Assembly: GCA_018696595.1 (NCBI GenBank)
Contig: JABHQW010000007.1
Location: 1 to 58,268, forward strand
Source of the DNA: Candidatus Woesearchaeota archaeon
Lineage (GTDB): Archaea > Nanobdellota > Nanobdellia > Woesearchaeales > GW2011-AR9
Direction: 5' to 3'
DNA length: 58,268 bases
Below the pieces are notes generated by a model. That model had not been told where the DNA came from and did no database searches. It worked only from the letters and a program-made list of their open reading frames with translations. Below, piece by piece: positions 1 through 16,414 of this stretch (the first letter of the stretch is position 1; each line of letters opens with the position of its first letter). A program made the translations under genes and the position numbers.

Positions 1-132
1 ATTCTAAAACACCCTTAAAGAGGAAAACCTAAACTAAAAAGAAAGACTATGGTTGTACTGGTTCCTGCGTCATAACTTCAACCTTCGCTATGCTCAGGTT
101 GCTCCCCAACATGAAGTGGGGGACAACTTAAC
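1..132 (+). mobile_element. Cassette unit 0, right end only (partial)
   Basis: Only the right flank of a unit is inside the window. It has the order seen at the end of unit 2: AGAGGAAAACC, then GGTTCCTGCGTCATAACTTCA, a hairpin (CCCCAAC, loop ATGAA, GTGGGGG at about 104-122), then the terminal CAACTTAAC at 124-132. It belongs to the same repeat family as unit 2 (1961-2095). No gene of this unit is visible. Mobility is inferred from the array pattern. Confidence 0.75.
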
Positions 133-136
133 ATAC

Positions 137-1183
137 ATTATGCTTAATTTTCAAGTTACCTAAAAGAGAACAATCCTGTCGGATAATCTCTAAACTAATG
201 CGTTGCTGTCTTTAACAATGTAAAAATCTATAACGGCAAAAACAAAAATAAACTGGAGCTCTCTGAACTATTTCAAATACTTTAAAAAGTCTAAAAAATT
301 ACTTAGAGTATAATGGTCATACCAATCATAAGTGATATAATCAGCAATATATGGTTCTTTCAAACAGAGAGTGTTGTACCATTATTTAAAGAAATATCAA
401 TCATTATCCTAATCCTATTTGTTGTTGATTTTATTTTAGCGGTAGTTCTTGATCAAGTTTTAATGAGATCAAAATATCATATTCCAATAGGATTAACGTT
501 GTGGCCAATATTTGTAGTAATTTTAACATACTTGTTTTATTCCTTTGGTGGACTTCTTGGTTTTAATTTTTACCAATTTGAGTTTAATAATCTTCTTGGT
601 TATGCAATAAAACATTGGTGGGTATTTGTAGTTTTTTGGATAATGACTTTATTTGGAAATATTCCTTATTCACTTGGCAAGTTAACCAAAAATGAAAAAG
701 TAATGAACTTTTTTGGAACATTCTTTACTCCCATACATGAAGAGTTCTTTTTTCGCTATTTAGGCATAAATACTATCTATGTACTTACCAATTCTATTGA
801 AATTGCAATAATATTTTCCTCTATTGGTTTTACATTGATCCATCTACCAAATAAATCCGGCGATAAATGGGGAGGGCCCGTAAAAATAAATGCAACATTG
901 TTTATGGGATTTGCATTAGGAATTATTGCTGTTAAGTATGGCTTCATTTTCGCAATAGCAATCCACATACTTAATAATTTACTAGCATTTTATGTTCTTC
1001 CTAAAATATTTAAAGATGAACAAATTTAACTAAAAAGAGAGCCCCAACTAAACACTAAAACTATTACTTGTTTTTGCCTAAACTAAATGTGTTAAAGACT
1101 TATGACAGCAACGCTCTATGAACGGTAACTTGAAAACTTCTCGGCTACGCCTCGACCCCGACGTAAAGTCGGGGAAGCATAAC
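137..1183 (+). mobile_element. Cassette unit 1 (CPBP protease)
   Basis: The left flank (137-264) and right flank (1036-1183) are an imperfect inverted repeat around one gene. Matching blocks are AATTTTCAAGTTACC against GGTAACTTGAAAA, GCGTTGCTGTC against GACAGCAACGC, GGCAAAAACAA against TTGTTTTTGCC, and GAGCTCTCT against AGAGAGCCC. The unit ends are ATTATGCTT and AAGCATAAC, complementary with one mismatch. The right flank alone contains a hairpin, CCCCGAC-GTAAA-GTCGGGG (1156-1174). The junction to unit 2 is TAAC-ATC-GTTA. Repeat structure is seen directly; function as a mobile cassette is inference. Confidence 0.8.
313..1029 (+). CDS. CPBP-family intramembrane metalloprotease
   Basis: A multi-pass membrane protein of 238 residues with about six to seven hydrophobic segments. 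It carries the CPBP (CAAX protease/bacteriocin-processing, ABI) signature: E143-E144 and R148 in HEEFFFRYLG, H177 in LIHLPN, and H218/N222 in HILNN, the presumed metal ligands. Family members cleave prenylated or other membrane substrates inside the bilayer; some bacterial members process or protect against peptide bacteriocins. The substrate here is unknown. It is the only gene of cassette unit 1, and both sides are the unit's inverted repeats, so it probably uses a promoter inside the unit. Family assignment is firm, biological role is not. Confidence 0.85.
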   Translation: MVIPIISDIISNIWFFQTESVVPLFKEISIIILILFVVDFILAVVLDQVLMRSKYHIPIGLTLWPIFVVILTYLFYSFGGLLGFNFYQFEFNNLLGYAIKHWWVFVVFWIMTLFGNIPYSLGKLTKNEKVMNFFGTFFTPIHEEFFFRYLGINTIYVLTNSIEIAIIFSSIGFTLIHLPNKSGDKWGGPVKINATLFMGFALGIIAVKYGFIFAIAIHILNNLLAFYVLPKIFKDEQI

Positions 1184-1186
1184 ATC

Positions 1187-6192: not shown

Positions 6193-6483
6193 TTTAATCA
6201 TCTCTTTTTTATTATTTCTATGAAATTACTTTAATCTTTTTAAAATTAACTCTTCTCAATGAACGAAAGAGCCCCCCAAACACTAAAAAACTAATTGTTT
6301 TTGCCTTTAAACTAACTAAACTAAGAACTATGACAGCAACGCACTATGCACGGTAACTTGAAAACTTCTCGCTAACGCTCGACCTGGACGTAAAGTCCAG
6401 GAAGCTTAACATCGTTAAGTTCAATATTTTTACCGCCTTGTAGGTTCACACAATGTTCCCGAAAATCTTTTGCACTGGCACCT

Positions 6484-6566
6484 TTGCATAGACGAGAACA
6501 ACAAACGTGAGGAAATTAAAACTTCCTATAACATTGTCTATGCGATTTCATTTCATTACACCCAAA
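6484..6566 (+). repeat. Structured insert in left flank of unit 7
   Basis: About 83 bp interrupt the flank between GGCACC and TTCACTAATAGG. The arms GCATAGAC (6486-6493) and GTCTATGC (6536-6543) are complementary; inside is a smaller stem AGGAA/TTCCT followed by TATAACATT. It ends with ACCCAAA. A similar element with different arms sits at the matching place in unit 8 (9933-10015). The TATAACATTG segment resembles the junction core TAACATCG. Confidence 0.6.
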
Positions 6567-6603
6567 TTCACTAATAGGCAGGGGGCGGAGAGTTATTATT
6601 AAA

Positions 6604-7146
6604 CTATCTAAGAGAACTAACACATTCAACAAATTCTGGAATAACTTTTATTCCAACTAACTTAACCCCACTTAACAAGTCAATAGCCGTATCAATATTC
6701 TTATTACACTGATTAATCCTAATTTCAAAATTATTCCTCATCTTCAAAAAATCATCATTTAGAATATCAAAATCATTTCTAGTTCTTTCTAATTTCTTCT
6801 CAATCCGCTCTTTAAAGACAATAATCTTTTTTACTTCCTTAACGAGTTCTTCCCATTTTTCATCAATTAAAGTATCAACAATCTCTTCTACTTTTTCGTA
6901 GATCATTTGCTCTGTTGATATATTGCCGACTTCAGTAAAATAATCTCCCTGCTCCTGAAAATTCTCATCAAAATCTTCCTCTTCATTTTGAAAAGTTTCA
7001 TCCGGTTGTCCAAAAGCCCAGTTAATTTCCTCTTCACTGTAACCTTTCGTAATCAATTCATCAAAAACATATTCGTCAGATAAACCATAATTTCTTAAAT
7101 TTTTTACTTCCAGAAGCAAATTATTGTAATAGTCCCTCTCCGACAT
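6604..7146 (-). CDS. Coiled-coil protein, function unknown
   Basis: 180 residues from the ATG at 7146, chosen because GGAGGG lies just upstream (GGAGGGTTTCAGATG). The first 50 residues (MSERDYYNNLLLEVKNLRNY... GYSEEEINWAFGQ) look like a short helical domain. An acidic linker (NEEEDFDENFQEQ) follows, then a predicted coiled coil at about residues 80-150 and a hydrophobic end. The layout (helical domain, acidic linker, coiled coil) recalls small DPANN scaffold proteins, but no family is recognised. It is the last minus-strand gene of unit 7. Confidence 0.65.
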   Translation of the reverse strand: MSERDYYNNLLLEVKNLRNYGLSDEYVFDELITKGYSEEEINWAFGQPDETFQNEEEDFDENFQEQGDYFTEVGNISTEQMIYEKVEEIVDTLIDEKWEELVKEVKKIIVFKERIEKKLERTRNDFDILNDDFLKMRNNFEIRINQCNKNIDTAIDLLSGVKLVGIKVIPEFVECVSSLR

Positions 7147-7218
7147 CTGAAACCCTCCACCATCTGTCAAGATGTTCCCATTTTTCATCTTCATCAAACA
7201 ATCCAAAATTTTCTGAAA

Positions 7219-7383
7219 TCATTTTCTTATTTTCAACTCTTTTATTGCTTCTCTTAGCAGCTTACGGAGAGACTTTCTTTTGCTTTGCACAGGAGCAGGA
7301 CTTTTTTCTACTTCTCTTATTTCACCATAACTAAAATCTGGGTCTTTCTCTATTTTTGGGATATGCTCAAAATATTGGTTCAT
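7219..7383 (-). CDS. Small basic protein, 54 residues
   Basis: Starts at the ATG at 7383 with GAGGT eight bases upstream. The product begins MNQYFEHIPKIEKDPDFSYG and ends in a strongly basic helix (KRKSLRKLLREAIKELKIRK). Its start overlaps the end of the next upstream gene (7367-7525) by 17 bases, which supports translational coupling. Function unknown. It belongs to the micro-protein set of cassette unit 7. Confidence 0.6.
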   Translation of the reverse strand: MNQYFEHIPKIEKDPDFSYGEIREVEKSPAPVQSKRKSLRKLLREAIKELKIRK

Positions 7384-7525
7384 TTTCCAATACCTCTTGA
7401 TCTTCAGGAATTCCTTTCAGTAATCTTTCCCAATTCTCTTCACGCAGATCATTCCACTCTTCATCGTAATCATAGTCTTCCCTTGATGCCCGCCACTTTA
7501 ATTTTTGCTTACGAGATCGAGCCAT
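7367..7525 (-). CDS. Small charged protein, 52 residues
   Basis: The ATG at 7525 is preceded by GGGGTGAT. The product starts with a basic head (MARSRKQKLKWRASRE) and continues with a Tyr/Asp/Glu/Trp-rich tail (DYDYDEEWNDLREENWERLL). Basic and acidic halves on one chain echo the separate basic and acidic micro-proteins further upstream. Function unknown. Confidence 0.6.
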   Translation of the reverse strand: MARSRKQKLKWRASREDYDYDEEWNDLREENWERLLKGIPEDQEVLENEPIF

Positions 7526-7606
7526 GATAATCACCCCTTTAAGCCTAACAGTAAAAGAAGTATAAAATTCTGTGGTAGAAATCACCAACTTTTTTGGGAA
7601 AAATAG

Positions 7607-7903
7607 TTAACCATAAAGTGCAATCCCCCCTAAAATAAAGATATAACAAATCAACCAAAGAACATAAGTGATGATAATTGGCTTTTTCTTATGTATGCTT
7701 CCGTAGGCTATCCAAACAAGTGCAATTAATATGTAGGAAAGCCAAGCAATCGCTGATACTCCACTCGCATTTTTTCCAATCCAAATTTTAGTTATTTGAG
7801 GAATCGTCATCGCCAATCCAAAAAAACCGGAAGAATAAATCAAAGTGTCAATTAGTTTTTCTTTTTTCGCTAGAAAAGTATATCTTGTTTGGTTTTCTTT
7901 CAT
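7607..7903 (-). CDS. SemiSWEET / PQ-loop transporter
   Basis: 98 residues with three membrane segments, the size of a SemiSWEET half-transporter that works as a dimer. The PQ-loop motif is in the first segment (MTIPQITKIWIGKNASGVS), followed by AIAWLSYILIALVWIAYG. Family members carry sugars or other small solutes across the membrane by facilitated diffusion; the solute is not predictable. It lies among the micro-protein genes of cassette unit 7. Confidence 0.85.
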   Translation of the reverse strand: MKENQTRYTFLAKKEKLIDTLIYSSGFFGLAMTIPQITKIWIGKNASGVSAIAWLSYILIALVWIAYGSIHKKKPIIITYVLWLICYIFILGGIALYG

Positions 7904-7975
7904 TTTCCATGCTAACCATAAATTATATGTTGAAAAGAAAAAAGATATTTGGGAATAAAAAATTGTCTTAAAGAC

Positions 7976-8071
7976 TTATTTTTTCTTCCCTTTCTTTGCT
8001 CCTTTTTTGGATTTCTTACCAGAAGCTTCTGCTCCAGCTGCAATCTTTGCTTTCCTTGATTTAGTTGCCAT
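7976..8071 (-). CDS. Polybasic micro-protein, 31 residues
   Basis: ATG at 8071 preceded by GGAGGT at good distance. The product is MATKSRKAKIAAGAEASGKK followed by SKKGAKKGKKK: about half Lys, otherwise Ala/Gly/Ser. It resembles the other MA(x)K-starting polybasic peptides at 8326 and 8387. A nucleic-acid-binding or charge-partner role is possible but is inference. The strong ribosome site argues that it is translated. Confidence 0.6.
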   Translation of the reverse strand: MATKSRKAKIAAGAEASGKKSKKGAKKGKKK

Positions 8072-8090
8072 TATATTTTACCTCCATTAT

Positions 8091-8258
8091 TCAGTCATAA
8101 TCATACTTGTAAGCCCAATCGTCATCATCTGGGTTGGTCTTCTTTCTGTTAGAACCTTCAAGGTTTCCCTCTTCGTAATCTTCTAACTCTGCAGAATCTT
8201 CTCCAAACCATCCAATGAAACTAAAGTTCTCATCTTTAAATTCTTCAGTATCTTTCAT
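8091..8258 (-). CDS. Acidic micro-protein, 55 residues
   Basis: ATG at 8258 with GGTGAGG upstream. The product is strongly acidic (MKDTEEFKDENFSFIGWFGE..., ending DDDDWAYKYDYD) with a short basic patch NRKK in the middle. It shares with the 36-residue product at 8482 a run of four Asp followed closely by Trp and a Tyr/Asp end. It follows the polybasic genes in the same direction. Confidence 0.6.
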   Translation of the reverse strand: MKDTEEFKDENFSFIGWFGEDSAELEDYEEGNLEGSNRKKTNPDDDDWAYKYDYD

Positions 8259-8325
8259 TTTCCCCTCACCATCTAATTGAAAAAAAGAAAAAAAATTTAA
8301 AACAGAGATTTCCTCTCAAAGAGAG

Positions 8326-8358
8326 TCACTTTTTCTTTTTTCCTTTCTTTTTAGCCAT
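8326..8358 (-). CDS. Possible 10-residue polybasic peptide
   Basis: ATG at 8358 with GAGGTG upstream encodes MAKKKGKKKK and a stop. It is extremely short and could be a remnant of the related 25-residue gene next to it, but the ribosome site and the same MAKKK start make it worth recording. Low confidence as a functional gene. Confidence 0.35.
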   Translation of the reverse strand: MAKKKGKKKK

Positions 8359-8386
8359 TGTGGAATCCACCTCATCAAGATTTTTT

Positions 8387-8464
8387 TTACTTCTTTTTTT
8401 TCTTCTTTCCTTTTTTTTTACCTTCTTTAGACTCAGCTGCAGCTTTCTTTTTCTTTTTGGCCAT
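8387..8464 (-). CDS. Polybasic micro-protein, 25 residues
   Basis: ATG at 8464 preceded by GAGGTGA. The product is MAKKKKKAAAESKEGKKKGK followed by five Lys. It has the same organisation (Lys run, Ala-rich patch, Gly/Lys tail) as the 31-residue product at 7976. Located between two acidic micro-protein genes. Confidence 0.55.
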   Translation of the reverse strand: MAKKKKKAAAESKEGKKKGKKKKKK

Positions 8465-8481
8465 TTATTTCACCTCATTTT

Positions 8482-8592
8482 TTAATAATCCTTGTCCCAA
8501 CGATCATCATCATCAGGATCAGGTTCTTCTTTGTCCTCATCTTCAAAATCTTCGTCATTACCTTCATTTTTCTTCTTCTTTCTTGGCGGCAT
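8482..8592 (-). CDS. Acidic micro-protein, 36 residues
   Basis: ATG at 8592 with a perfect GGAGGT upstream. The product starts MPPRKKKKNEGNDEDFEDED and ends EPDPDDDDRWDKDY: a basic head and a long acidic tail with four consecutive Asp before Arg-Trp. It resembles the C-terminal end of the 55-residue product at 8091. Confidence 0.6.
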   Translation of the reverse strand: MPPRKKKKNEGNDEDFEDEDKEEPDPDDDDRWDKDY

Positions 8593-8605
8593 TTTTTGTA
8601 CCTCC

Positions 8606-8737
8606 TTACAGTATTGCTCCGCAATAAGGGCAAACTAAAGAAAGCCCTTCCATTTTTGTTTCATCTACAAACACTTTACACTTCGGACAATAACAACCCT
8701 GATGGCTTTTTTTTGAAGAGGTGTTTTGGCTTGTCAT
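8606..8737 (-). CDS. Zinc-ribbon micro-protein, 43 residues
   Basis: ATG at 8737. The product has two CxxC pairs, C15-Y-C17-P-K-C20 and C36-P-Y-C39 (GCYCPKCK and VCPYCGAIL), spaced as in a small zinc ribbon. Such minimal ribbons are common in archaea as nucleic-acid or protein binding adaptors. No ribosome site is evident upstream. It is the gene nearest to the Lrp regulator. Confidence 0.6.
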   Translation of the reverse strand: MTSQNTSSKKSHQGCYCPKCKVFVDETKMEGLSLVCPYCGAIL

Positions 8738-8820
8738 TGTTGTTCAGAAAGAAAGAAAAGTACCTATATAATCTTGCGGTAGGTGAAATAAACCAAAAAA
8801 AGAAAATAAGTTTAAACTAA

Positions 8821-9378
8821 TTATTTCTTTTTCAGGAAGAACTCGTTAAGCGGGAATTCTTTCTTGTCAAGAATTTCATAAAGCAGACCTATCGGTGATT
8901 CTGTGATTATCTTCTCAGTGGAAAATGGATAAATATGTAAGATTTCAACTTCTCTGGAAAACTTCGTCTGCATTTTAGCAACGTATCTATCCATTTGATC
9001 TAAATCCTTAAAGCCCATAATCAATATATGGCTCGCTTTAGGCTCTGTGACACGATAAGCATTAATCACGTAGGGGATTTGCTTAATCCTCTGTGAAATC
9101 TGTTCATCACTATGAGAATCCCAGACTTCTGAAGTTAGCTTAATGATGAGCATCGCCATTACTTTAATCCCTAATTTCCTTAAATCAAGAATAGGCTGAT
9201 AGCCTTTAATTATACCTTTATCTTCTAACTTATGACGAATCTTAAAAACAGCTTGAGGAGAAAGACCCATCTTTTTAGCTATTTCTGTATCGGGCAATTT
9301 AGCAGACTGGATAATCGTCTTTAAAACTTCCTGATCATTTCTTGTTAAGTGGGGGTTCTCTGGGTCTGGCTGCTTCAT
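8821..9378 (-). CDS. Lrp/AsnC-family transcriptional regulator
   Basis: 185 residues. The N-terminal helix-turn-helix is at about residues 12-60 (LTRNDQEVLKTIIQSAKLPD and KKMGLSPQAVFKIRHKLEDK), followed by a RAM-type ligand domain at about 68-150 (KVMAMLIIKL..., SHILIMGFKDLDQMDRYV). The length is slightly above the usual 150-165, with a Lys-rich C-terminal tail. It probably controls its own transcription and perhaps the micro-protein genes downstream on the same strand. It is the first gene of unit 7 on the minus strand. Confidence 0.85.
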   Translation of the reverse strand: MKQPDPENPHLTRNDQEVLKTIIQSAKLPDTEIAKKMGLSPQAVFKIRHKLEDKGIIKGYQPILDLRKLGIKVMAMLIIKLTSEVWDSHSDEQISQRIKQIPYVINAYRVTEPKASHILIMGFKDLDQMDRYVAKMQTKFSREVEILHIYPFSTEKIITESPIGLLYEILDKKEFPLNEFFLKKK

Positions 9379-9707
9379 AGTAAGCTAAAATAACTAACAA
9401 CTTTAAAAGCATTTCTAAGAAATTTAAATAACTCTCCGCCCCATGGTTTTACTCTGCTTTGCAGTAATTGATATGCCTATTAGTGAACTACGGTGCCAGT
9501 GCGATTTTCGGCGGTAAAAATACTCTGCGATTTAATGTTCTCCGTGAGGAATTAATAAAAAAATTCTAGTCTCACTCCGAACTTAAATCTTGGTCTCCCC
9601 ACTCCGCAAACATATCACTGTAAAAGTAGATGTTTAAATCGAAAGAACCCGCTTCTGTAAGTCGCTATAATTCCCTAAATGTTTGCTCGTAAGTCGACGA
9701 ACTTAAC

Positions 9708-9801
9708 AGGAATTATGCGGTTGCGTTACTCAGGCTCCCCTCTAAAGGGGTCGCCCTGCGTTACTCACCCAAATGGCTTCGCCACTTCGCATAATTCCAC
9801 C
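9708..9801 (+). repeat. Foldable linker between units 7 and 8 (attC-like)
   Basis: 94 bp between the terminal GAACTTAAC of unit 7 and the initial GTTATACGTA of unit 8. It has GGAATTATGCGG at its left and CGCATAATTCC at its right, an 11 bp inverted repeat. Inside are two TGCGTTACTC copies around a variable stem (CCCC-TCTAAA-GGGG), and then ACCCAAATGGCTTCGCCACTT. It is near-identical to 12280-12364 except for the central stem. The order (outer 7-9 base arm, inner arm, folded centre, inner arm, outer arm) matches the general plan of integron attC sites. Confidence 0.75.
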
Positions 9802-9932
9802 GTTATACGTAATTTTTTATTTGCCTTGCCTTTGGCAACTTTCTTAGCTCTTTTCCTTTCCCATGCAAAGCTCAAGTAAAAACCGAAAAGAAAGCTTCGG
9901 GCTACGTCGGGAATGTTTAACGTTGGTACTTT

Positions 9933-10015
9933 CGTTTAGTCGGATAAAACAAAAAGAATTCAATTGAAACTGAATATAACATTGACTAAACGGCTTCGCT
10001 TCGCTACGACCCAAA
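9933..10015 (+). repeat. Structured insert in left flank of unit 8
   Basis: Arms CGTTTAGTC (9933-9941) and GACTAAACG (9984-9992) are complementary and enclose GGATAAAACAAAAAG, a small stem ATTCA/TGAAT and TATAACATT; the element ends with ACCCAAA. It occupies the same position in the flank, just after GG(T/C)AC(T/C), as the insert 6484-6566 in unit 7, with different arm sequence but the same architecture. Confidence 0.6.
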
Positions 10016-10122
10016 TTTTTTTAATGAATCTAAATCAAGTAATAATTACAAAATACTATTAATTTCAGATGAATTTATAAACTAATCCTGAAATTTTTAC
10101 GCTTAAATTGACAAATAAAGAA

Positions 10123-11172
10123 ATGGAATCATTGAACTTTTTGATAACTAATGCAAAAGCACAAACTTTTCCAGGAACAGTCTACAGCTTAAAGCAAGAA
10201 TTTAAAGGAAAAATAATTTCTGTATCTTATAAAGAAAACGCAATAGGTGCATTCCTTTCTGATAAAAATTTTATAATCTCAAAAAACGATTCTTCTCAAT
10301 ACATCAGAGAAATTTTGTCCATTTGTAAAGAAGAAAAAATCGATGTAATCATCCCACTTAGTATTGAAGAAAGAATTATTTTTCTTAAAAATAAACAACT
10401 GTTTGATGAAAATGAAATTAAGATATTCTCTTCAAGTATTGAATCAATTGAGAATGCAGAAAATAAAGTTTTTCTTTATGAACTTTGTAAGAAAAATAAT
10501 ATTCTAACTCCTTATTTTTATGTTGTTAATAATTATACTGACTTAAAAGAAAAAGCGTTATTATTAGGTTATCCACAGAAAAAAGTAATCATCAAACCAA
10601 TTAATTCTTGCGGTTCGAGAGGTTTAAGAATATTAAATAAAAAAGCTGATTACAAAAAAAACTTTTATAATATTAGAGCAGATTACACTGAAATTACTTT
10701 AAGTGATCTTAGAAATATTATTGGAAGTAAATTTAGAGATTTAATGCTTTGTGAATATATCTCGGGTGAAGAATATACCGTCGACTGTTTGCGTTTAACT
10801 GAACATCATTTTTCTTTTCCTAGAATAAGAAAAGAAGTAAAAAATGGATTAACATATGTTGGCCAGATGAGTAAGCATGAAGAAATAATTCAATCAAGTC
10901 AAAAATTAGCAAATATTTTGGATTTAACAACCGTATTTGGTTTCCAGTTTAGATTGAATGAGATGAATAAGCCTGTAATCATTGATTGCAACCCTCGAAT
11001 TCAAGGAACAATGATTATGAGCACTTTAGCAGAAGCAAATGTAATAGCTGCTGGGATTAAGATTTTGTTAAATAAAACTAAAGTAGAATTTAATCCTGAT
11101 TGGAACATGACATATTATAGATTCTGGGGTGGTGTTTCTGTTGGTAAAACGAAAAAAATAGTTAATTTTTAA
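10123..11172 (+). CDS. ATP-grasp ligase
   Basis: 349 residues from the ATG at 10123; a TTG five codons upstream is the alternative. The fold is visible: a Rossmann-like pre-ATP domain (about 1-110), the ATP-grasp core with VIIKPINSCGSRGLRIL (lysine and glycine-rich loop), LCEYISGEEYTVDCL, and the metal-binding end VIIDCNPRIQGT. It looks closest to the carbamoyl-phosphate-synthetase/PylC-type group. Such enzymes form an acyl-phosphate and ligate it to an amine; substrates are unknown. It converges on and overlaps by 11 bases the deacylase gene, and the two share cassette unit 8. Confidence 0.85.
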   Translation: MESLNFLITNAKAQTFPGTVYSLKQEFKGKIISVSYKENAIGAFLSDKNFIISKNDSSQYIREILSICKEEKIDVIIPLSIEERIIFLKNKQLFDENEIKIFSSSIESIENAENKVFLYELCKKNNILTPYFYVVNNYTDLKEKALLLGYPQKKVIIKPINSCGSRGLRILNKKADYKKNFYNIRADYTEITLSDLRNIIGSKFRDLMLCEYISGEEYTVDCLRLTEHHFSFPRIRKEVKNGLTYVGQMSKHEEIIQSSQKLANILDLTTVFGFQFRLNEMNKPVIIDCNPRIQGTMIMSTLAEANVIAAGIKILLNKTKVEFNPDWNMTYYRFWGGVSVGKTKKIVNF

Positions 11173-12106
11173 CTATTCCCAGATGGATGATTCTTGATCC
11201 AGCATAATTAACTGGATTAGTGTTTTTTCCGATAATAATTCCATTTTCAGGAGAATGATATTCTTTTATAACTTTTCCAAAGATATCACTTACAATTGCA
11301 ATTTTTTCTCCCTTTTTTACATTAGATCTCAACCCTGGTAAAACATTTAAAATTCCACCTCCTTTAGTGTTAATTCTTTGCGAACTAGTGCAAATAGTTG
11401 GATTAGTATTAATTGAAGTTTTTCCATCAATAATATTTAGATAAATTAAGCAGTTAACTATTCCTTTAACCGCATTAGAAATCACTTCATTTTGAAATTT
11501 GTTTGGGTCCCCCAATTCTAGAGTAATCGCTATTATTCCATTTTCATTTGCCTGTCTTCTCAGGGTTCCTTTTCCACCTATTGAATTAAGGATAATATCT
11601 GAATTTAGTAGTAATGACAAATCGTAAATAACTTTATTTTTCAAATTAGCTCTAACATAAAAAGAATTCACATTTCCAATTCTCGCTGTATGTAGATCAA
11701 GAATATAATCAAAATTTTTTATAACTTTATTAAAAATATTGAACGCATAAATACTACTCTCTGTGCCATTTTCCTTTCCAGGAAATTTATAATTCAAATC
11801 TCTTCCGTCAATAAAATTTCTTTCTTTTCTTAAAAAACCAGGCACATTAATTACTGGCACTCCTACAATAATTCCTTTTAATTTATTTAAATCAATTTCA
11901 TTAAACACTTTATGGATTACCAAAAGACCATTTAATTCATCTCCATGAACTAGTGCTGTTAATCCAAATGTTGGTCCCTTTTCTTTTCCTTTTAATACCA
12001 TAACTGGAACACTAATATCATGACCCAAACTATTTGAAACTATCTTTAACCAGCAACTTGTTAATCCTACTGGAAAATTATTAAAATCCAATTCTTTTAT
12101 CTCCAT
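11162..12106 (-). CDS. Succinylglutamate desuccinylase/aspartoacylase family (M14-like)
   Basis: 314 residues. Zinc ligands are visible in LVHGDELNG (HxxE) and the later His in ILDLHTARIGN; the catalytic Glu candidate is in ITLELGDP. The family removes acyl groups from amino acids or peptides (AstE, AspA and relatives). A C-terminal beta domain (GGGILNVLPGLRSNVKKGEK...) resembles the barrel-sandwich tail of this family. Pairing an ATP-dependent ligase with a deacylase suggests a make/trim step on a common amide, but substrates cannot be read from sequence. Confidence 0.85.
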   Translation of the reverse strand: MEIKELDFNNFPVGLTSCWLKIVSNSLGHDISVPVMVLKGKEKGPTFGLTALVHGDELNGLLVIHKVFNEIDLNKLKGIIVGVPVINVPGFLRKERNFIDGRDLNYKFPGKENGTESSIYAFNIFNKVIKNFDYILDLHTARIGNVNSFYVRANLKNKVIYDLSLLLNSDIILNSIGGKGTLRRQANENGIIAITLELGDPNKFQNEVISNAVKGIVNCLIYLNIIDGKTSINTNPTICTSSQRINTKGGGILNVLPGLRSNVKKGEKIAIVSDIFGKVIKEYHSPENGIIIGKNTNPVNYAGSRIIHLGIVKN

Positions 12107-12279
12107 GAAGAGAGGTTTTATCCATAACTATAAAAATTTAATTGAATAAACCACATATATAATTGGTTTTACTCTGCTACGCAGTTATTGATAACGATTC
12201 ATTAAAAAAACTACAGTACCAACTACATTCCCGACAAATAAAAAACTCCGCAGACCATCAAAGGTCTGCTACGTATAAC

Positions 12280-12364
12280 AGGAATTATGCGGTTGCGTTA
12301 CTCGGGGCATCAAAGCCCCTGCGTTACTCACCCAAATGGCTTCGCCACTTCGCATAATTCCAAC
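12280..12364 (+). repeat. Foldable linker between units 8 and 9 (attC-like)
   Basis: 85 bp between TACGTATAAC and GTTATGC. GGAATTATGCGG and CGCATAATTCC form the outer stem; between them TGCGTTACTC occurs twice around CGGGGC-ATCAAA-GCCCCTG, then ACCCAAATGGCTTCGCCACTT. Against 9708-9801 nearly all changes lie in the central stem, where both sides change together. The following GTTATGC fits the integron core consensus loosely (GTTRRRY with one T). Confidence 0.75.
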
Positions 12365-13081
12365 GTTATGCTCAATTAATCTTTTCCTCTTTTCCAAAAA
12401 CATCTTTATTGCCAACTTTTGCTTTCTCAACTGTTATCTTAATCCTCTTAATTCTAGTTTCTTCACGTTTCCCACGTAAGATCCATCTATAAAAAACCTT
12501 TTTTAGAGAAGCAGAGTACTTTTCAAAATTATCTTTAGCTTTCTTATTTTTATCTAAAGCTTTCTTTAATTCAACAGGTATATCTGGATTTTTTGGAATT
12601 CCAAAATCATGTGTGGGCTTCATCAGACCTTCTTTGTAAAATTTCAAGCCTGAAGGAGTCATTTTTCCACGTTCAATCAACTGTTTACCATACCCGAGAG
12701 TGTTATCACTCCATTTACTATTTTTATTCCTTCTAGAAAATGTTCTGATATACCTTTCTTCATCTAATTTTTTAAGTGTAGTATCAATCCAACCAAAACA
12801 AATCGCTTCTTCCATTAATTCTCTGTGAGAAGGAGATGACTTACCTGTATGTTTCTTGTAAACTATAACTAAAACTTTATCTTCTTTATCATGATTCGTC
12901 ACTAACCACTTTCTAAAATCTATTCTATTGAATGCAGTTATTGTCTTCATAGTATCACCATTAATCTTTGATATCATTTAAACTTTATGGGTTTTTCTGT
13001 TTCAATATTTTATATTGGTTCAATACTCCACTTTTTGAAATCCCCTTATCCTTCAGACATATAGACCCCCCAGCACATAAC
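12365..13081 (+). mobile_element. Cassette unit 9 (YdeI-like protein), degenerate ends
   Basis: Starts GTTATGCTC and ends GCACATAAC, so only the first six bases are complementary to the end, and long flanking repeats are not obvious. The junction to unit 10 is CATAAC-ATC-ATTAAG, a one-base variant of the core. It may be a hybrid or decayed unit. Confidence 0.55.
12372..12950 (-). CDS. YdeI/OmpD-associated family protein
   Basis: 192 residues from the ATG at 12950, chosen because GGTGAT lies just upstream. Characteristic segments are FRKWLVTNHDKEDKVLVIVY, EEAICFGWIDTTLKKLDEER, and FSRRNKNSKWSDNT, typical of the YdeI/OmpD-associated ('bacteriocin-protection') family. The C-terminal region (AKDNFEKYSASLKKVFYRWI...) matches the family's second domain. 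Molecular activity of the family is not established. Single gene of cassette unit 9. Confidence 0.8.
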   Translation of the reverse strand: MKTITAFNRIDFRKWLVTNHDKEDKVLVIVYKKHTGKSSPSHRELMEEAICFGWIDTTLKKLDEERYIRTFSRRNKNSKWSDNTLGYGKQLIERGKMTPSGLKFYKEGLMKPTHDFGIPKNPDIPVELKKALDKNKKAKDNFEKYSASLKKVFYRWILRGKREETRIKRIKITVEKAKVGNKDVFGKEEKIN

Positions 13082-13084
13082 ATC

Positions 13085-14477
13085 ATTAAGTTCAATTTAA
13101 ACACACATCTTTATAACTGAGAAGCATATTTTGCAGTATATGGATACATCATTTAAAGATCTTAATCTGAACCCGCAATTAGAAAGAGCATTAACTAAAT
13201 TAGGATATAAAGTACCAACCCCGATTCAGTTGAAAGCAATCCCGGGTTTATTAGAAGGTAAGGACCTAATAGGTATTGCACAAACAGGCACTGGTAAAAC
13301 TGCAGCATTTGTATTACCAATACTGCACCGGATGGTTGAAAAATATCCTAGAAAAATTAGAACTTTAGTAGTTGCACCAACACGAGAACTAGCAGCACAG
13401 ATTGGAGAAAGTTTTACCCAATATGGAGAGTTCTTGAAGTTTAAACACACAGTTATCTTTGGTGGTGTTAAACAAGGAAAACAAGTTCAAGCATTAACTA
13501 AAGGAGTAGACATTCTTGTAGCAACACCAGGAAGATTATTAGATTTAATAGATCAAAGAAAATTAACTCTTAAAAATGTAGATTTTTTTGTCCTTGATGA
13601 AGCAGACAGAATGTTAGACATGGGATTCATTAATGATATTAAAAAAATAATTTCCAGATTACCTCATAAAAGACAATCACTATTCTTCTCAGCAACAATG
13701 TCTCCACAAATCAACAAACTTGCAAAGAGTTTACTTAATAACCCAATTCATGTTGAAGTTACGCCTCAAGCAACTACGGTAGAATTGATCAAACAAGAAG
13801 TCTTTTTTGTTGACCAAAAAGCTAAAGAACAGTTATTGCTTAAACTTTTGAAACATGAACACCTTACAAGTATTCTAATTTTTACTAGAACAAAACATCG
13901 AGCAAACAAAGTTGCTGTTTTCCTTAATAAGAATAATATTTCTGCCGATGCAATTCATGGCAACAAATCACAAAATGCAAGAACAAAAGCAATTAAAGAT
14001 TTTAAAACAGGTAAGATTAAAGTTTTAGTTGCAACTGATATTGCTGCACGAGGGATAGACATTCCAGAAATTTCTCATGTGATAAATTTTGAACTTCCTA
14101 ACGAACCAGAAAGTTATGTTCACCGGATTGGTAGAACTGCCAGAGCTGGAGCTAAAGGAACAGCATTTTCATTTTGTGCTGCTGAAGAAAGAAGTTATCT
14201 TCACAGTATTGAAAGATTGATCAAACAAAACATTGAAGTTATGGATCACACTTTTCATTCAGAGACTGCAAAAAACGCAGTAGGTGCAGCAGCCAAACCA
14301 GCACCAAAACAAAGAGGATCATTTAGATCAAAAAGCAAAAAATCATTTTCTAAAAAGTTTAAGCCCAAACACCGTTTTAAAAGAAGATAGTAATAGAATT
14401 AACTAAGGAGATAAACTGATTTATATTTTCTTTTTAAGATTATCTAGTGTGGGGGAGGGTCAGAATTAGCCCATAAC
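13085..14477 (+). mobile_element. Cassette unit 10 (DEAD-box helicase), degenerate ends
   Basis: Begins ATTAAGTTC after the core and ends CCATAAC (14471-14477); ends match only weakly. The junction after it is CATAAC-GTT-GTTAAGCTC (14471-14489), the last recognisable core in the array. The housekeeping-type cargo and weak repeats suggest that this is either an old unit or the chromosomal border of the array. Confidence 0.45.
13140..14390 (+). CDS. DEAD-box ATP-dependent RNA helicase (RhlE-like)
   Basis: 416 residues from the ATG at 13140; TTTATAA at about 13110 is placed for a leaderless start. All core motifs are visible: Q-motif (PTPIQLKAIP), AQTGTGKT, PTRELA, VATPGR, DEAD, SAT, IFTRTK, ATDIAARGIDI and HRIGRTARAG. 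The C-terminus is a basic, Ser/Phe/Lys-rich tail for RNA binding. It unwinds structured RNA, probably in ribosome assembly or cold adaptation. It is the only gene between the junction cores at 13085 and 14477. Confidence 0.92.
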   Translation: MDTSFKDLNLNPQLERALTKLGYKVPTPIQLKAIPGLLEGKDLIGIAQTGTGKTAAFVLPILHRMVEKYPRKIRTLVVAPTRELAAQIGESFTQYGEFLKFKHTVIFGGVKQGKQVQALTKGVDILVATPGRLLDLIDQRKLTLKNVDFFVLDEADRMLDMGFINDIKKIISRLPHKRQSLFFSATMSPQINKLAKSLLNNPIHVEVTPQATTVELIKQEVFFVDQKAKEQLLLKLLKHEHLTSILIFTRTKHRANKVAVFLNKNNISADAIHGNKSQNARTKAIKDFKTGKIKVLVATDIAARGIDIPEISHVINFELPNEPESYVHRIGRTARAGAKGTAFSFCAAEERSYLHSIERLIKQNIEVMDHTFHSETAKNAVGAAAKPAPKQRGSFRSKSKKSFSKKFKPKHRFKRR

Positions 14478-14489
14478 GTTGTTAAGCTC
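14471..14489 (+). repeat. Last recognisable cassette junction core
   Basis: CCATAAC-GTT-GTTAAGCTC. It keeps the TAAC...GTTA dyad with a GTT spacer instead of ATC, in the same orientation as the others. No further core is seen to the right through 58 kb. Confidence 0.55.
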
Positions 14490-14521
14490 AATCGTGAAAA
14501 AAAATAAAAAATAAAAAAAAA

Positions 14522-15298
14522 TTATTTTCTACAGGCAACAATGGTTTCTCTTACACATTCACTCATTAAATCATAAGCCCCATTTTCTATGAGAGAATCA
14601 TGCAATTTACCAGTAAAACTTCCAGGTCCAGCAACTTGACCATATATTTCATCACCGGATGTTCCCATGAGTAAACGTTTTCCAATTGCCATTAAAGTTG
14701 CCCCATACATAGCTCTTGCATCTTCTTCATTCAATCCATCTAAAGAATCTATTTTGCGTTCTATTCCTTTAGCCATCAAACCAGTATCACAAGCAATCCA
14801 AGTACGATCAGCCAAAGCTTTTTCATCAACTTCTTTAGCTGAACCTCCAAAGATGTACTTTACTATTGCCTCATCTTCTTCGGTGGTTTTAGAACCAAGC
14901 GCATATGCTGCTATTTCATCAGATACAAAAATGCCAGTCATCACTCTGCAAACTCTTGATTGGTCAAGAATTGATTCTATATTTGCAATACTCTTTCCTG
15001 CGGCAAGAGAAATTACCAGTTTATCTTTAGCAGAGTATTTTATCTCTTCACAGACATCATCAAGAGAATTTGGTTTTAAACCCAGAATTACTACATCAGA
15101 ATTTTTAACAGCATAAACATTGTTATTGCTAACTTCAATGCCATATTGTTGTTGTAACTTTTCCAATCTTTCTAAGTTTCTTCTTGCTGCAATTATTCTT
15201 TGATGTCCTTTTTTCTTCAAGGCATCAATCACTTTGGTTCCTAAGTATCCCGCACCAACTACAGAAATAGTCTTATCGCTGACAAGGAATACAATCAT
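14522..15298 (-). CDS. proC: Pyrroline-5-carboxylate reductase-like protein
   Basis: 258 residues with the ProC layout: N-terminal Rossmann motif VVGAGYLGTKVIDALKKKG, NSDVVILGLKP, LVISLAAGKSIANIE, and the C-terminal helical dimer domain (MAIGKRLLMGTS, QVAGPGSFTGKLHDSLIENG). ProC makes proline from pyrroline-5-carboxylate with NAD(P)H. The C-terminal 'PGG.T' region is present as PGSFT, one residue off the usual PGGTT, so another imine reductase activity is possible. It may be co-transcribed with small upstream frames at 15273 and 15494. Confidence 0.8.
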   Translation of the reverse strand: MIVFLVSDKTISVVGAGYLGTKVIDALKKKGHQRIIAARRNLERLEKLQQQYGIEVSNNNVYAVKNSDVVILGLKPNSLDDVCEEIKYSAKDKLVISLAAGKSIANIESILDQSRVCRVMTGIFVSDEIAAYALGSKTTEEDEAIVKYIFGGSAKEVDEKALADRTWIACDTGLMAKGIERKIDSLDGLNEEDARAMYGATLMAIGKRLLMGTSGDEIYGQVAGPGSFTGKLHDSLIENGAYDLMSECVRETIVACRK

Positions 15299-15362
15299 CG
15301 GTATTCCCGAAAGCTGTTTCGCTTCCCATTCCTAATTTTTCCATTCTTTGTTCTAATTCCAT
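15273..15362 (-). CDS. Possible 29-residue peptide upstream of proC-like gene
   Basis: An ATG at 15362 with GGAGG nine bases upstream opens a short frame, MELEQRMEKLGMGSETAFGN then TDDCIPCQR. It overlaps the first 26 bases of the proC-like gene in another frame, a layout suited to translational coupling. CxxC at its end. It could also be a shifted remnant of the neighbour's N-terminus. Confidence 0.4.
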   Translation of the reverse strand: MELEQRMEKLGMGSETAFGNTDDCIPCQR

Positions 15363-15685
15363 TTTATTTTTCCTCCAAGTTTTTTTGAGGAGGGACCAGA
15401 AACATTTTTGTTTCTCGTTTCCCCCAAGTTTTGTTTTTTAGAAATATCCTAATAACTTCTTAAGAAGACAGGATAAAAAAATAATGGAGACAATTATTGT
15501 CCCGGTGTTGGCTGAAGAGAACTAAATCTATTTAAATCAGAATTTGCAATTTCAAAGTTCATTCTCTTCATCATAATTACAAGTAAGAAGAGAATCTATT
15601 TAAAACTTTCTTAATTTTTTTTAGAATACTACACAATCAAAAAATATTTAAATAACCTCTTATCTCTTTCTAGTTGAGGTGTAAG
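15363..15685. other. Intergenic region with a hairpin and a possible 26-residue frame
   Basis: No long gene. A hairpin AGAAACA/TGTTTCT lies at about 15400-15420 and a palindrome CTTCTTAAGAAG at about 15452. On the minus strand 15494-15574 encodes MMKRMNFEIANSDLNRFSSL followed by QPTPGQ, with a TATA-like TTTTAAATA about 28 bases upstream of its ATG. On the plus strand ATTTAAATAAC (about 15645) is a TATA candidate for the exonuclease gene. Confidence 0.4.
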
Positions 15686-16414
15686 GTGTTAACAAATAGT
15701 TTCATTCATATCCCTGGAATTAGTAAAGAAAAAGAAGTGATGTTGTGGTCAAGCAACATTCTTAATTGGCAAGAATTTCTAGACAATGATACGTTTCCTA
15801 GCATGAGATCTTGGATAGAAGAATCAGTTGAAGCACATCAAAATAACAATCATAAATTCTTTCTCACACATTTGCCGGGTAATGAACATTGGCGAGTTTA
15901 CAAACAGTTTAATTGTTGTTTCCTAGATATTGAAACAACTGGATTAAGTAAACATTATCATGATGTTACAGTTATTGGGTTATATGATGGAAAAGAATCT
16001 AAAATATTTATTAACGGTAAAAATATGGATCAGTTTCCAGCAGAGATGGCCAAATATTCAACAATAATATCTTTCAATGGAAAATGTTTTGATGTTCCTT
16101 TCTTAAAAGCTAAATTCCCAGAAATAGATTTTAATAAGTTTCATATTGATTTAAGATACGTAATGAAATCAATTGGTTATTCTGGCGGGTTGAAGAAGAT
16201 TGAAAAAGAAGTTGGGATTTGTCGTGATGACGATCTGCAAGACATTTCTGGTTTTGACGCAATTCGTTTATGGAGACAATATCAGCGAGGAGACGAAGAA
16301 GCTTTAAAATTGCTGGTTAAGTATAATATTGCAGATATTGAAAACCTTAAAACTCTAATGGACTTTACTTATGATAAGTTGAGAGATAAACATTTCTTAG
16401 GGAAAATAGAGTGA
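15686..16414 (+). CDS. YprB-like ribonuclease H-fold exonuclease
   Basis: 242 residues from the GTG at 15686, favoured by GAGGTG just upstream (GAGGTGTAAGGTG); a TTG at 15674 is the alternative. The 3'-5' exonuclease motifs are present: DIETTGL (first acidic pair), IISFNGKCFDVPFL, a His-x-Asp in FHIDLRYVM, and a final ADIENL. These match the RNase_H_2/YprB group of predicted DnaQ-like exonucleases. The N-terminal 70 residues carry IPGISKEKEVMLW, which looks like the helix-hairpin-type start of the same family. Confidence 0.8.
   Translation: MLTNSFIHIPGISKEKEVMLWSSNILNWQEFLDNDTFPSMRSWIEESVEAHQNNNHKFFLTHLPGNEHWRVYKQFNCCFLDIETTGLSKHYHDVTVIGLYDGKESKIFINGKNMDQFPAEMAKYSTIISFNGKCFDVPFLKAKFPEIDFNKFHIDLRYVMKSIGYSGGLKKIEKEVGICRDDDLQDISGFDAIRLWRQYQRGDEEALKLLVKYNIADIENLKTLMDFTYDKLRDKHFLGKIE

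Follow-up and report, generated by a model that had tools for sequence, protein, structure and literature searches.

The question raised by this locus is what two foldable linkers are doing in a gene array that also has junctions of only three nucleotides, ATC. The array occupies the first ~14.5 kb of contig C2 in a genome bin of 1.19 Mb; the window analysed here is the whole stretch of 58,268 nt. The initial annotation compared the linkers to the attC sites of integrons. Our analysis indicates that they are very probably the attC equivalents of an integron-like cassette system of Woesearchaeota-type DPANN archaea, with a XerA-family enzyme and with linker and ATC sites in the same arrays. All data come from genome bins, and it is from these that we infer the recombination activity of the system.

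Cassettes and junctions in the window

The linkers of 94 nt (9708-9801) and 85 nt (12280-12364) stand, as initially described, in place of the 3-nt ATC. On direct reading, the flanking AAC has its last base at 9707 and 12279 and the flanking GTT its first base at 9802 and 12365, with the linkers between. The junction sequence of the ATC type is TAACATCGTTA at 1180, 2092, 3777, 4772, 5584 and 6407, and TAACATCATTA at 13078. The features of the array are the following:

133-136 (+): 4-nt junction variant ATAC, in the context AAC-ATAC-ATTATGC, first complete cassette (window 125-145)
1184-1186 (+): ATC-type junction; others at 2096, 3781, 4776, 5588, 6411 and 13082
6414-9801 (+): mixed cassette with an ATC junction at its start and a linker site at its end; R' and R'' complementary over 9 bp
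9699-9707 (+): R'' box GAACTTAAC, 3' end of the cassette starting at 6414 and 9-bp complement of GTTAAGTTC at 6414
9708-9801 (+): linker site 1, 94 nt; A, then stem 1 (9709-9719/9788-9798) and GTTGCG; then an inner hairpin (9732-9757), CACCCAAAT (9766-9774), hairpin 2 (9775-9783), ACTT and the spacer ACC
9802-9810 (+): R' box GTTATACGT, opening the next cassette; complementary to 12271-12279 over 9 bp
9802-12364 (+): cassette with linker sites on both sides; its cargo is an ATP-grasp gene (10108-11172, +) and an AstE/AspA-family gene (11162-12106, -)
12250-12269 (+): one-sided hairpin GCAGACC-ATCAAA-GGTCTGC just outside R'', arranged as beside R'' in ATC-type cassettes
12271-12279 (+): R'' box ACGTATAAC
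12280-12364 (+): linker site 2, 85 nt, on the same plan as linker site 1
12365-12373 (+): R' box GTTATGCTC, opening the next cassette (YdeI/OmdA-like gene, 12372-12977, -)
14414-14492 (+): putative attI-like stretch at the right array border, 81% identical to DNA just upstream of the genome's own recombinase gene

The internal anatomy proposed for the linkers was confirmed in both. The outer stem GGAATTATGCG/CGCATAATTCC lies at 9709-9719/9788-9798 in linker 1 and at 12281-12291/12351-12361 in linker 2, and the two inner copies of TGCGTTACTC are found at 9722-9731 and 9757-9766 and at 12294-12303 and 12320-12329, respectively. The central stem changes between the linkers (AGGCTCCCCTCTAAAGGGGTCGCCCT versus GGGGCATCAAAGCCCC) with pairing kept in both. 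A string search recovered two occurrences in the window where chance predicts 0. Folded as single-stranded DNA, the copy at 9699-9810 gave z values of -3.7 (top strand) and -5.3 (bottom strand), and the copy at 12271-12373 a z value of -2.8. The left cassette ends at 6500-6560 and 9945-10015 carry a second conserved structured block, with a stem around TATAACATT followed by ACCCAAAT, which is partly similar to the linker.

Cassettes in the window start with GTTA and five variable bases, and the exact complement of this start ends each of them before ATC or a linker (end pairs GTTAAGTTC...GAACTTAAC, GTTATCTTC...GAAGATAAC, GTTATGTGC...GCACATAAC and GTTATACGT...ACGTATAAC). The initial annotation had proposed the order R-L-loop-L-R of attC sites. 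An attC-like plan is indeed present (R'' - stem - complex loop - stem' - R'), but the flanking R boxes do not pair reliably across the linker, whereas they pair perfectly end to end within their own cassette (9802-9810 and 12271-12279, 9 bp). In 45 ATC or mixed cassettes from the window and related genomes, R'' and R' of one cassette match at 4.33 of 5 variable positions, compared with 2.64 for shuffled ends (0 of 10000 as high) and 2.6 for the boxes that face each other across a junction. The corresponding values for 57 cassettes of linker arrays are 4.72 of 6 positions, 2.96 for shuffled ends (0 of 10000) and 3.04 across the junction. Since own ends match far better than shuffled ones and junction-facing boxes do not, R'' and R' belong to the same cassette, with a consensus GTTA... 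rather than the strict GTTRRRY. Their complementarity is therefore as expected for an integron-type circular cassette. R''/R' pairing across the array junction was dropped as a candidate conserved unit, its match being no better than shuffled. Some cassette ends are mismatched and represent either old or decayed cassettes or misparses by the model.

When an ATC cassette is joined as a circle, its ends form a stem at the base, made by the long inverted repeats, with a 7-bp hairpin on one side, and the 9-bp R''/R' hairpin, whose loop is ATC. For 38 ATC cassettes the joined ends have a mean folding energy of -37.6 kcal/mol, against -21.6 for mismatched ends, and the own pair is the best in 33 of the 38. 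The outer parts of the linker type equal those of the ATC type, with the linker in place of the ATC loop. Of the folded recombination sites seen so far, this minimal hairpin is possibly the simplest.

The linker family: structure, distribution and cargo

The 17 linker copies from which we built a covariance model follow a common plan: A, an 11-bp stem, GTTnCG, an inner region, CACCCAAAT, a hairpin, ACTT, the other side of the stem, a spacer and GTTA. Between GTTnCG and CACCCAAAT, the inner region can be as short as 14 nt or exceed 100 nt; in the window it corresponds to the variable central stem. In the 17-site alignment, 98.2% of the stem and hairpin pairs are formed, and covariation is 0.809 against 0.167 in shuffled alignments (0 of 500 as high); pairing and covariation collapse in every version in which the pairing partners were slid. 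The 96 model matches, in an alignment fitted to the model, are 95.5% paired with a covariation of 0.671 against 0.167. The linker is thus a covarying site that can fold as a single strand and has, like the sites of integrons, a conserved stem of variable sequence. An attC-like preference for the bottom strand is nominal: this strand is more stable in 86 of 94 sites, which is not clearly above the bias of shuffled sequences (45 of 60).

Of 288 genomes of the order, 103 gave a match to the linker model (E ≤ 0.01). In a phylum-wide draw, linker sites were present in 76 of 243 genomes (E ≤ 1e-4), including 16 from other orders of the same class. The ATC type is less common, with 13 of the 288 genomes positive for a strict pattern (control 0). 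Arrays run on one strand: of the 29 loci examined, which together hold 92 linker sites, none mixes the two strands, and cassette bodies have a median length of 786 bp. Mixed arrays were seen in the genome of the window, in G062 (L084), in G244 (L080) and on contig JABHRR010000014.1 (L061), while other arrays consist solely of linker sites. The initial annotation had suggested a search of the genome for further copies, and would have counted their absence from cassette borders, together with a lack of covariance-model support, against its reading. A third linker was detected at C8:87967-88075 (E 1.1e-11), and many more stand at such borders in related genomes. The linkers apparently form a large, previously undescribed family of gene-cassette recombination sites.

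Several observations concern the limits of this family. The third linker lies near the end of contig C8 together with a junction variant TAAC-AAAC-ATTA in the same orientation (G000:C8:87967-89720, L174), and the C8 array may run on across contig ends towards C2. Scattered ATC matches in contig C3 of the same genome were not counted as sites. At ~691-772 and 2608-2689 in L133 (G150:C11), two junction-like sites are only ~80 bp apart; such 'empty' mini-cassettes, with both ends and no gene, may represent a minimal mobile unit. Linker sites were also found on contigs binned as Anaerolineaceae, Buchananbacteria and Yanofskybacteria (L055, L065, L066), which could be misbinned archaeal DNA or could reflect cassette transfer to bacteria. 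The linker core pattern had no match in the viral contigs searched, and a 19-base pattern searched in all species (21 contigs) gave bacterial coding-sequence matches that were rejected as chance after inspection.

Duplicated and common cassettes are bounded by the junctions. In the G171 array a 913-bp ATC-type cassette is present twice (93.5% identical, gapless), and homology stops at AACATCGTTATG on both sides. The 136 bp across linker 2 (12240-12375) are identical in contig JABHRR010000014.1, which belongs to another Woesearchaeota MAG. The cassette between the two linkers has left (9891-10034) and right (12167-12301) ends that share ~98.6% identity with the ends of the cassette nearest the G244 recombinase, which comes from another genus and has different, unrelated cargo. 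Two other MAGs also have, at 83-84%, the YdeI/OmdA-type gene that follows linker 2. Toxin-antitoxin pairs are a common cargo of large integrons. On the minus strand of L082 (G171:C2), at ~8400-8700, 10000-10700 and 15200-15900, we noticed candidate toxin-antitoxin-like cassettes which, judging from their protein sequences, encode a PIN-like protein with a small DNA-binding partner and a RelE-like protein.

Border recombinases and competing explanations

In 19 of 19 examined contigs carrying both a recombinase and sites, a tyrosine recombinase gene lies 5' of the sites on the opposite strand, i.e. divergently (the site of L171 is on the minus strand). The clearest platform is that of G171, where the recombinase is followed by a foldable attI-like stretch, with short direct repeats of GTTAAG beside it, and then by at least 12 cassettes. 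Foldable stretches of this kind, recognised by eye at several platforms, are putative attI sites, and the border geometry is that of an integron integrase. The candidate recombinase of the genome of the window is encoded on C3 at ~265.1 kb and does not adjoin the array at the start of C2; at the array itself there is only the copy of its upstream DNA (14414-14492, 81%). This recombinase falls in one group with the recombinase found at the border of a linker array in G274. The more typical XerA-like proteins of these archaea form a separate branch with no sites nearby. A motif GTCCAGTG...AGTGG recurs just upstream of recombinase genes in L080, L081, L082, L099, L130, L142, L186 and L143; it is possibly a common regulatory box or a set of recombinase binding repeats.

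The mechanism that we propose starts from a cassette made of a (G)TTAnnnnn start, at least one gene in either orientation and a complementary nnnnnTAAC end, to be followed by ATC(G) or by a foldable linker of ~65-190 nt ending in (G). In the presumed cassette circle the ends would meet and one DNA strand would fold, with R'' and R' pairing over 9 bp and enclosing either the 3-nt ATC loop or the linker with its 11-bp stem and side hairpins. The XerA-family tyrosine recombinase, whose gene lies divergently at the 5' border beside the attI-like stretch, would recognise this core, folded or palindromic, and strand exchange at G/TT would add or remove cassettes. That the intermediates are circular, that the route is single-stranded, where exactly crossover takes place, that this recombinase is the enzyme and that it acts on sites of both sizes is what the organisation of the arrays suggests to us. 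Array-adjacent recombinases fall into several clades, so that this enzyme is a candidate.

The initial annotation asked whether one recombinase uses sites of different size or whether two related systems are involved. Two separate recombination systems, one for linkers and one for ATC, with cassettes brought into one array by coincidence, would fit the several clades next to arrays, the two G244 platforms with different recombinases and the rarity of the ATC type (13 against 103 of 288 genomes). We nevertheless find this doubtful: the R-box grammar and the outer hairpin plan are common to both types, cassettes that bridge both kinds of junction have matching ends, and one recombinase clade occurs beside both. 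Because the mixed cassettes (6414-9707; G062) have complementary ends and one clade adjoins both types, a single system is favoured, although not proven.

Less probable still is a remnant of a canonical integron (CALIN), in which ordinary attC sites would be served in trans by a bacterial-type IntI; our data largely refute it. The R-box logic is the same (GTTA.../...TAAC), the linkers are of attC-like size, and the divergent integrase is placed as in the class 1 integrons used for comparison. Archaeal integrons with true IntI do exist: Ghaly et al. 2022 (PMC9668308) reported them, on the basis of bacterial models, in 75 archaeal MAGs, Nanoarchaeota included, and a few of our linker sites may be among those sites. 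However, the attC covariance model, proposed in the initial annotation as a check, gave no support for the archaeal sites as known attC. A model of 14 bacterial attCs, chosen by reading the stretches after cassette genes, had no match in the archaeal arrays (six sequences; unfiltered best 7.9 bits), although it does pick up an attC-like site in bacterial DNA that was not used for training (E 4.6e-4); the test is of moderate weight because the model is narrow (class 1-type cassettes). The linker model, run on bacterial arrays, found no bacterial attC.

The proteins also argue against a CALIN. The cut-off of TIGR02249 (integron integrase) was reached in 0 of the 288 genomes. The recombinases of the window's genome and of G171 exceed the 220-bit cut-off of the XerA family (NCBIfam recomb_XerA_Arch, NF040815) with 232.3 and 236.4 bits, while their IntI family scores of 194 and 217 stay below the cut-off of 265. 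Matches of the IntI model in these archaea break where the IntI-specific insert sits, which the array-adjacent recombinases do not have: compared with VchIntIA, 63 IntI residues face 20 in the array-type recombinase, so that ~43 residues of the insert region are missing. The best alignment of array-type recombinases is with solved XerA.

Two further explanations are very improbable. If the cassettes were non-autonomous, IS- or MITE-like transposons with terminal inverted repeats, ATC would be a 3-bp target duplication and the linkers a second small element inserted there. Long inverted repeats around each gene, the repeated ATC and the common ends of units with different cargo fit this idea; against it, the terminal 9 bp differ from unit to unit but change together inside each, unlike conserved transposase ends, the units form ordered arrays in one orientation instead of being scattered with their target duplications, linker-only arrays exist, and the border gene encodes a tyrosine recombinase and no transposase. 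Structured RNAs or transcription terminators between genes would explain the compensatory stem changes as well as single-stranded DNA does, together with the conserved loop motifs (CACCCAAAT, ACTTCG), but the sites of an array lie on one strand and the genes on both, exactly between complementary cassette ends, their structure extends into these ends in the joined circle, and neither the linkers (E ≤ 5) nor the region gave a match in Rfam.

A likely integron class of DPANN archaea and its relation to known systems

Returning to the linkers as attC equivalents of an integron-like system, we consider it likely that DPANN archaea possess an integron class of their own. This class would rely on XerA-family recombinases, in which the IntI domain was either never present or lost, and on two interchangeable folded sites, one a conserved attC equivalent of 65-190 nt, the other a minimal hairpin of 9 bp closed by an ATC loop; this class would be present in about one-third of the genomes of a major archaeal order and missed by current integron searches. 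Among the papers searched, none combines 'Woesearchaeota' and 'integron'. If this reading is true, such storage and exchange of genes either has more than one origin or has a longer history and a wider spread than IntI, and the small-genome DPANN archaea have a mechanism of gene acquisition. The evolution of a folded-site recombinase out of an enzyme for dimer resolution, and the reason why IntI requires an extra domain, would also become testable.

Xer-type recombinases move small DNA modules in XerCD-dependent pdif modules, and phages of the CTX type integrate through folded single-stranded DNA. Such XerCD modules are not known to have ordered one-strand arrays, matching ends inside each cassette or a dedicated border recombinase. 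The dif site has inverted arms around a centre of 5-6 nt and in this respect resembles the sites described here. The archaeal XerA/dif system (PMC2958812, PMC3646895) has the same recombinase family, but there dimer resolution uses one double-stranded site on the chromosome, dif, in contrast to the many folded, cassette-bounding sites of these arrays.

The system differs from integrons in its recombinase, which is of the XerA family and lacks the IntI-specific insert, and integrons are defined by IntI. Its sites contain the fixed motifs GTTnCG, CACCCAAAT and ACTT and an 11-bp stem one base from R''; there are, moreover, ATC-only sites, long inverted repeats and side hairpins outside the R boxes, and genes in both orientations. 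What it has in common with integrons and CALINs are cassette arrays on one strand, R'' and R' boxes (AAC/GTT) that belong to one cassette, an attC-like site at the 3' end of the cassette, a divergent integrase at the 5' border with a foldable attI-like stretch beside it and, in one array, toxin-antitoxin-like cassettes.
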